The notes under the pieces: model-generated
Told to the model about the DNA's origin: nothing
Database searches by the model: none
The model's input: the letters and a program-made list of their open reading frames with translations, nothing else
In this document: positions 16,918 through 18,852 of the stretch, piece after piece
How the letters are laid out: each line of letters begins with the position of its first letter
Numbering within the stretch: the first letter of the stretch is position 1
Source: Bdellovibrio bacteriovorus str. Tiberius
Lineage (GTDB): Bacteria > Bdellovibrionota > Bdellovibrionia > Bdellovibrionales > Bdellovibrionaceae
Assembly: GCF_000317895.1 (NCBI RefSeq)
Contig: NC_019567.1
Coordinates: forward strand, 1,922,001 to 1,986,000
Reading direction: 5' to 3'
DNA length: 64,000 nt
Program-made: the position numbers and the translations under genes

Positions 16918-17280
16918 TTAAATTACAGGGTAAGAGCACTCGGTGGCTGGAGTTTCCGCCACTGTGACTTTCACCAGCGTCGGCAGAACCGGGCGGGCCT
17001 TGTCATACAGCCATTTTGCCAAAAGTTCGGAAGTCGGGTTTTCAAGGCCCGGAACTTCGTTCAAAACGCGATGATCAATCTGGTCCAAGAAAGGCTTCAT
17101 CACGGCCTGGATGTCGTTGTAATCGATCACCCAGCCAATTTTGGGATCGAGGTCGCCCACCAGAGTCAGAATCAACTTAAAGCTGTGCCCATGCATACGA
17201 GAGCACGGATGGCTTGCCGGAAGGTGAGGCAGGAATCGCGCCGATTCAATTTGAAAATGCTGTTTCAGTTCGAATTTCAT
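16918..17280 (-). CDS. PTPS/QueD-family protein, Cys-bearing paralogue
   Basis: A 120-residue member of the 6-pyruvoyl-tetrahydropterin synthase / 6-carboxytetrahydropterin synthase family. The CxxxHGH motif is present (PCSRMHGHSF), with the QueD catalytic Cys and two Zn-binding His. The usual first Zn ligand, His16 in E. coli QueD (AAHRLPH), is replaced by Arg in SARFLPH. Late family residues AETPATECSY are kept. The start is ATG at 17280, giving normal length. It is divergent from the second PTPS gene with only 29 bases between starts. A queuosine-pathway role is possible, but the Zn ligand change makes this uncertain. Confidence 0.85.
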   Translation of the reverse strand: MKFELKQHFQIESARFLPHLPASHPCSRMHGHSFKLILTLVGDLDPKIGWVIDYNDIQAVMKPFLDQIDHRVLNEVPGLENPTSELLAKWLYDKARPVLPTLVKVTVAETPATECSYPVI

Positions 17281-17309
17281 GCTAATACTATAGTCATTCC
17301 GAGGTGAGT

Positions 17310-17804
17310 ATGTCCACGACCACATTGCATTTGGCAAAACAAAATTTCAAGTTCTCTGCCGCGCACTTTCTGATCTTTGATGAAACACACGCAGAGCGCC
17401 TGCATGGTCATAACTACCAGGTCAAAGTCGACATCAAAACGCCTTCCGAAGAAGAACTGCATTCTGACGGTTACTTCATTGATTTCAATGTGTTTAAAAA
17501 ATACATCAAAGCCCGCCTGGATCAGTGGGACGAAATGGTGCTGTTGCCAGAAAATCAAAAAGACATGAAATTCAAAAAAAACGGCAATTCGCTGGAAGTG
17601 ACTTTCCGTGATCGTTTTTATGTGTTCCCGGTCAAAGAGGTGTCTTTACTGCCGGTGACCAACACCAGCGTGGAGCAACTGTCCCGCCTGCTGGCTGAAG
17701 AATTCCATGCGGAGTTCAAACAGTATGGTGTGAAAAGTGTGCGCGTCTATGTCGCAGAAACCGCAGGGCAGGGTGCCTCTACGGTGGTGCCGTCCAGGGC
17801 TTAA
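17310..17804 (+). CDS. PTPS/QueD-family protein, Cys-less paralogue
   Basis: A 164-residue PTPS-fold protein. It keeps all three Zn His: FSAAHFLIF and RLHGHNY. At the position of the QueD catalytic Cys (CxxxHGH) it has Ala (AERLHGH). An insertion of about 40 residues (about 75-115) makes it longer than QueD. The C-terminal VAETAGQGAS matches the family's active-site Glu region. The start is ATG at 17310, after GAGGTGAG at 17301. It is head to head with the other PTPS gene and overlaps the next convergent gene by 26 bases. It may act on another pterin or pair with its neighbour. Confidence 0.85.
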   Translation: MSTTTLHLAKQNFKFSAAHFLIFDETHAERLHGHNYQVKVDIKTPSEEELHSDGYFIDFNVFKKYIKARLDQWDEMVLLPENQKDMKFKKNGNSLEVTFRDRFYVFPVKEVSLLPVTNTSVEQLSRLLAEEFHAEFKQYGVKSVRVYVAETAGQGASTVVPSRA

Positions 17805-18852
17805 GTTTGCCGCTGGAAACTTCGCTGGCGGTCAGCTCGCGCACCACACGGTAGCGCCAGAAACAAATACGTCCGCCTTCATTCAGCTTCTGTTCCAGAC
17901 GTTCTTCGGTCAATTCAGGACTGCCATCACAATCGATATGTGCAAAGTCTGCAAAGGCGTCCACGCGGTTCACCGACCATGAATAAGGGGCCTTGTCGCG
18001 GGAAAGAAACGCTCGGTTGAATCCGCCATTTCCCAGTTCAATTCCCGCCACCACAATTTTTTCCAAATTCGGATTGCGAATCTGTTCGCGAGCCGTGGCG
18101 ATGGTTTCAGGTTTGTCCAAAGCAATCACAAACGCTTCATCCGCTTGGGGGTCTTTGGTTGAAACCAGGAAGTAAGTTTTTGCGGTATCCACCGGCAACA
18201 TCACAGGTTTCAGCGCCACCGAAGGGCTTACTTGTTCGCCCGAGCCATTGTCGTAACTAAGCACTGAGTGCAGTCGTTCTGCGCCCCGAACTTCAATACG
18301 GGCTACGGATTGGTCCAAGCTCCATTTGAACGCTGATGTATCATAATACTTCTCAAGCTTAAGTTCTTTTTCGCCAATCACGGCGCCCAGGCGGTTGAAG
18401 GCTTTCAGGCGAACAGTGTTGGGTTTCAAGTAAAGGTTCAATAAATGAAGTTTCACACTTTGTACCGAAGAGGGCAGCCAGTGCGTGATTTCTGGGGATG
18501 TCGTATCAGTTAAAGGAGTACTGAAAGAATCCGCGCAAGAGCTGGTGACGTGAAGGACATTTTTGTCCCAGGCTTTGACGGAAAAGGCCTGAGCTTCCGG
18601 CAAGAAGCTGGTGCCGCGAATTTTGATCTGAGCTTTGGCTTCCAGGTCGTGGTGTCGTTCGTCGATTTCGGCGCCGTAGCGCACTTGGGTCCACACACGC
18701 TGAGGTTCGTTGGTGTTGTTGGTGACAAACAAGGTCAGGTGCTCCGGGGCGCACAGCGACGGGCTGTAAAACACCTGCGAGGCTTCCGCCGTGAAGGAAG
18801 TCATAAGGATCAAGCTGCCAATACCGATTGAAGTCTTAATACCAAAATCCAT
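17779..18852 (-). CDS. Exported hypothetical protein
   Basis: A 357-residue protein with a signal peptide (residues 1-25, ending TAEAS). The remainder looks like beta-rich sandwich domains (LHLLNLYLKPNTVRL, DTAKTYFLVSTKD) with two Cys in the mature N-terminal half. I recognise no family. The 3' end overlaps the convergent PTPS gene by 26 bases. It is divergent from feoA across 185 bases. Likely periplasmic. Confidence 0.65.
   Translation of the reverse strand: MDFGIKTSIGIGSLILMTSFTAEASQVFYSPSLCAPEHLTLFVTNNTNEPQRVWTQVRYGAEIDERHHDLEAKAQIKIRGTSFLPEAQAFSVKAWDKNVLHVTSSCADSFSTPLTDTTSPEITHWLPSSVQSVKLHLLNLYLKPNTVRLKAFNRLGAVIGEKELKLEKYYDTSAFKWSLDQSVARIEVRGAERLHSVLSYDNGSGEQVSPSVALKPVMLPVDTAKTYFLVSTKDPQADEAFVIALDKPETIATAREQIRNPNLEKIVVAGIELGNGGFNRAFLSRDKAPYSWSVNRVDAFADFAHIDCDGSPELTEERLEQKLNEGGRICFWRYRVVRELTASEVSSGKLKPWTAPP

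Follow-up and report, generated by a model that had tools for sequence, protein, structure and literature searches.

A conserved head-to-head pair of PTPS-family genes with altered active sites in Bdellovibrio bacteriovorus

Architecture and conservation of the gene pair

The window, the whole 64,000-nucleotide stretch of the Bdellovibrio bacteriovorus str. Tiberius genome analyzed here, contains two divergently oriented genes of the PTPS family. The minus-strand gene (16918..17280) encodes a 120-residue protein resembling QueD (6-carboxytetrahydropterin synthase), whose translation includes IESARFLPHLPASHPCSRMHGHSF. The plus-strand gene (17310..17804) encodes a PTPS-III-like protein of 164 residues, counted from the ATG at 17310, whose translation includes SAAHFLIFDETHAERLHGHNY; an alternative GTG start at 17304 is possible. 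Both products exceed the Pfam PTPS (PF01242) cut-off of 22.4 bits, with scores of 102.8 for the minus-strand protein and 70.8 for the plus-strand protein, confirming the positions and family membership proposed in a preceding sequence-only reading. The gap between the two ATG codons (17281..17309) is 29 bp, again as proposed, and overlaps a promoter-like element on the minus strand (TGGACA-18 nt-TATAGT, 17316-17287) recognized by consensus match only. The two proteins share approximately 31% identity, a value that applies only to the stretch aligned by BLAST. In addition, an ORF for an exported protein (17779-18852, minus strand) runs convergently and shares 26 bases with the plus-strand gene at the 3′ end of the latter.

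A survey of co-occurrence, suggested by the same reading, located both genes in 46 of 49 Bdellovibrionaceae genomes, immediately head-to-head in 44. The other two genomes carry the pair divergently but ~800 bp apart (G037) or split over different contigs (G044), and neither gene was found in three genomes that are 81–92% complete (G013, G036 and G043). For most Bdellovibrio genomes the start-to-start gap measures 28–34 bp; outside this genus it is mostly 10–38 bp and reaches about 104 bp. In a close relative (L139), the QueD is 92% identical to the minus-strand protein. Both genes evolve under purifying selection (dN/dS 0.03–0.08), and two of the exchanged active-site residues described below, the Arg of the minus-strand protein and the Glu of the plus-strand protein, are invariant in the family sequences examined. 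Selection together with invariance argues that these exchanges did not arise by chance. Recent duplication of one gene was ruled out, since the two proteins fall in different PTPS subfamilies.

The minus-strand protein and the Arg-type QueD clade

The minus-strand protein scored only just above the cut-off of the QueD equivalog profile TIGR03367 (90.6 versus 89.25 bits), and its predicted structure superposed on Escherichia coli QueD (PDB code 4ntm) with a Z-score of 20.9 and an rmsd of 1.2 Å over 120 residues. Fold searches were read from two lists, and the absence of a family from a list was not counted as exclusion. In E. coli QueD, the established assignments are His16, H31 and H33 as Zn ligands, Cys27 as the catalytic cysteine, D70-H71 as the dyad and E110 as the pterin-binding glutamate. 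Alignment to this enzyme showed that the minus-strand protein retains C27, H31, H33, D70, H71 and E110, such that the catalytic Cys, the Asp-His dyad and the pterin-binding Glu of QueD are all present. The His16 column is occupied by the Arg of the motif SARFLPH (Arg15, codon 17236..17238, minus strand), in agreement with the earlier claim that this copy keeps its Cys and exchanges the first Zn-ligand His. A three-His zinc site is considered characteristic of PTPS/QueD proteins; the minus-strand protein departs from it at this column and is accordingly filed here as a QueD-like variant. We also considered a neighboring His as a substitute Zn ligand and rejected it, as the loop holds no conserved replacement and many Arg-type sequences read ARRLPALPESHPC.

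The genome encodes three PTPS proteins, namely the members of this pair and one PTPS-II-like protein, and because the other two are of other types, the minus-strand protein is its only QueD-type candidate. FolE, queC and queE (268 bits to TIGR04349) are also present, the latter two away from the minus-strand gene. The protein is thus the QueD of this organism, most likely converting dihydroneopterin triphosphate supplied by FolE to 6-carboxytetrahydropterin for queuosine. The metal would be held by two His together with substrate or water; alternatively, the Arg may assume part of the electrostatic role of zinc.

To describe the distribution of this variant, we scanned 84,980 species with a pattern demanding the Arg and obtained at least 120 matches. 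Those listed come from Bdellovibrionota, Thiobacillaceae, Hydrogenophilaceae and other Pseudomonadota, Neomarinimicrobiota, Planctomycetota, Gemmatimonadota, Myxococcota-like metagenome-assembled genomes (MAGs) and marine Euryarchaeota. Every Bdellovibrionaceae QueD examined carries Arg at this column. In Neomarinimicrobiota the Arg-type gene lies within a queC-queE-queD operon, and in 11 of 26 tested genomes, these 11 lying outside the family, its product is the sole PTPS protein found. The alignment set held 143 Arg-type and 11 His-type sequences, most of the non-family Arg rows having been collected with the Arg-demanding pattern. In the resulting tree, the Arg types cluster inside the His types (support 90/91), except for a single outlying row, probably of a protein other than QueD. 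The support for the clade is only moderate, and the wide sample was picked with a pattern that demands Arg. Pro26, immediately before the Cys, accompanies Arg16 in 138 of the 143 Arg-type sequences, and Lys or Arg26 accompanies His16 in the small His-type set of 11. The phylogenetic spread, the operons, the genomes with a sole PTPS protein, the tree grouping and the Pro26 covariation mark the Arg as a trait inherited within the subfamily and not as damage in this genome. A phage or plasmid origin was considered and set aside: such elements yielded only distant QueDs, and among eight regions inspected, the seven that were aligned were all His-type. A QueD clade that spans several phyla and misses one zinc His offers a natural test of the metal requirement of the family.

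The plus-strand protein and the folate genes

The best PDB sequence matches of the plus-strand protein are the Plasmodium PTPS structures 1y13 and 2a0s. Its predicted structure gave a Z-score of 19.8 to both 2a0s and 3lze, and the model aligns with Plasmodium PTPS over 157 residues, including the insert relative to QueD (ENQKDMKFKKNGNSLEVTFRDRFYVFPVKEVSLLPV, approximately 17550..17657, plus strand) that the Plasmodium enzyme also has. The three zinc His are present in the motifs SAAH and HGH. The Cys column holds Ala, and the residue that follows is a Glu aligned with the catalytic Glu of Plasmodium PTPS (HAERLHGH in the plus-strand protein, FRETLHGH in Plasmodium); this Glu is invariant across the family. 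The sequence-only reading was thus right about the zinc His, the Ala and the insert, but its description of a simple active-site loss did not hold: the catalytic residue has been exchanged in a known way, and the insert likewise matches Plasmodium. Glu38 of P. falciparum PTPS is needed for the formation of 6-hydroxymethyl-dihydropterin (PMC2229834), and the FolB-bypassing function of PTPS-III has been tied to a Glu that replaces or accompanies the Cys (PMC5615194; PMC5041015).

A further active-site change, absent from the earlier reading, concerns the dyad. Where Plasmodium PTPS retains Asp-His, the plus-strand protein has Asp-Glu (WDEMVLLP), and the dyad is Asp-Glu or Asn-Glu in all Bdellovibrionales sequences examined. 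From the residues it keeps, the protein would bind Zn and a pterin, with the Glu acting as base; the exchange of the dyad His for Glu, however, has probably altered what the protein makes or what it acts on.

The most serious competing explanation is that the plus-strand gene encodes an ordinary PTPS-III that makes 6-hydroxymethyl-dihydropterin and thereby bypasses FolB, so that the pair would place a queuosine gene beside a folate gene. This is in keeping with the catalytic-type Glu, the insert and the Plasmodium PTPS fold, and with the profile searches, in which FolB was found neither in this genome nor in any of 24 genus genomes. Moreover, in four MAGs of other lineages (L091, L102, L141 and L154), an Arg-type QueD gene is directly followed on the same strand by a PTPS-III gene with an Asp-His dyad; FolB is absent from all four, and FolP is present in both of the two tested. 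The enzymes that would use the product were, however, not found in the Tiberius genome: the same type of search detected no FolK there or in any of the six genomes tested, and no FolP there or above cut-off in any of the 24, and a simple folate bypass was downgraded on this result. The weak FolP matches seen in relatives sit in ORFs of about 1200 residues that are probably MetH. The exchange of the dyad His also speaks against an ordinary PTPS-III, as do three pair-bearing genomes (G025, G044 and G039) that have FolB near FolP and nonetheless encode the Glu-dyad form. The occurrence of the Asp-His form without FolB and of the Asp-Glu form beside FolB suggests that the former is the folate bypass and the latter something else. 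Since the searches recovered none of FolB, FolK and FolP from this genome, we judge folate bypass by the plus-strand protein unlikely, although very divergent FolK or FolP proteins would escape profile searches.

A degenerate FolK (HPPK)-like ORF that lacks the two catalytic Asp lies elsewhere in the genome (G000:C1:42526-43149; L252:2526-3149, plus strand). It is kept in 18 of 23 neighborhoods examined, ~7 kb from queE, and in G030 it stands beside dapB and a transaldolase-like gene; the genomes that carry it mostly have no recognizable FolK and FolP. Given its conservation and the limits of profile searches, an unrecognized folate route is possible. The literature we consulted held nothing specific on queuosine or folate in Bdellovibrio.

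Because FolB, FolK and FolP were not found, the most likely use of the plus-strand protein lies in pterin metabolism outside folate synthesis, such as an aromatic amino-acid hydroxylase cofactor or pterin salvage, a role that we favor but regard as unproven. The cofactor option is suggested by the distribution of the hydroxylase, which was present in 13 of 14 tested genomes. These include G003, G026 and G040, in which the PTPS proteins found were limited to the QueD and plus types and no match to FolB was detected (the Pfam family searched also covers FolX). The remaining genome, G030, has the plus-strand gene and gave no hydroxylase match, which argues against a strict link between the two. 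The third PTPS gene of the Tiberius genome, of PTPS-II type, lies beside a short-chain dehydrogenase gene (G000:C1:2039034-2039411; L002:1495-1884, minus strand), and a Biopterin_H protein is encoded at G000:C1:3662655-3663458; together they may constitute a tetrahydrobiopterin route.

Roles of the pair and comparison with known systems

We consider it probable, overall, that the pair encodes two different, non-redundant pterin enzymes of the T-fold, conserved and divergently arranged, both with altered active sites and with the roles proposed above, and not duplicated and decaying copies. Subfamilies, residues, conservation and gene content are observed here, whereas metal states, reactions and roles are inferred. 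The suggestion of two different pterin reactions is supported, as one protein belongs to the QueD subfamily of PTPS and the other to the Plasmodium/PTPS-III group. Within the family, the pair also withstood the co-occurrence check proposed in the sequence-only reading. More tentatively, as a possibility we rate below the general reading, the plus-strand protein may represent a new functional class of COG0720, defined by a zinc site, the Glu and an Asp-Glu dyad and acting in a non-folate pathway of Bdellovibrionales, next to a QueD operating with a changed zinc site or with none.

The sequence-only reading had also raised complementary losses in a mixed hexamer, whose composite inter-subunit sites would combine the zinc site and Glu of the plus-strand protein with the Asp-His dyad of QueD. 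The residues are complementary on paper, 44 of the 46 pair-bearing genomes keep the tight head-to-head linkage, and the PTPS active site is inter-subunit according to the title of Burgisser 1995, a reference of PMC2229834. Each type nevertheless occurs without the other. Besides the 11 genomes in which an Arg-type QueD is the sole PTPS protein, six genomes from other families of the order (G051, G053, G060, G063, G067 and G078) lack an Arg-type QueD yet have the Glu-dyad protein, in some cases alongside a His-type QueD of the ordinary kind. This independent occurrence led us to downgrade an obligate heteromer, and with identity between the proteins as low as ~31% over the BLAST-aligned stretch, we regard a mixed hexamer with composite sites as very improbable, although a facultative mixed oligomer may occur. 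Least credible of all is the idea that the two genes are catalytically inactive remnants in decay, for although zinc-site and dyad residues are altered and folate pathway genes are missing, the low dN/dS, the invariant active-site columns and the retention of the pair in nearly all family genomes are hard to reconcile with decay.

Two of the six genomes, G063 and G067 (L065, L066, L071 and L072), gave queC and queE matches and no recognizable QueD among the PTPS proteins seen; there, a PTPS-II-like or Glu-dyad protein might substitute for QueD.

Under the preferred reading of two distinct enzymes, the plus-strand protein is a PTPS-III relative maintained by selection in predators apparently unable to complete folate synthesis, and it points to an unrecognized use of pterins. 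A Glu in place of the Cys is, by itself, insufficient for annotation as a folate bypass. Rickettsia stands as a published warning against mistaking a PTPS gene for a folate bypass (PMC5615194).

Among characterized systems, E. coli QueD (4ntm/4ntk; PTPS-I) is closest to the minus-strand protein, with 45–48% identity, the same fold, shared catalytic, dyad and pterin-binding residues and two shared zinc His, and a queuosine-pathway genome context; it differs in its His16 ligand and in Lys26 preceding the Cys, which are Arg and Pro, respectively, in the minus-strand protein. Acinetobacter baumannii QueD2 (7v0f), a second QueD, is also a QueD paralogue and shares this fold, but the match is weak (Z-score 10.7–11.3). 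PTPS-II of biopterin synthesis, represented here by the third PTPS, shares the superfamily and the predicted substrate pool with the pair, and differs in its Cys-type motif CYTQYGHGHNY and its separate location. Plasmodium PTPS and other PTPS-III enzymes resemble the plus-strand protein in the Glu for Cys, the insert of ~40 residues, the three zinc His and the fold. They differ from it in the dyad, where the plus-strand protein has Glu in place of His, and in genomic setting, since a folate-bypass role in Bdellovibrio would stand without recognized downstream enzymes.
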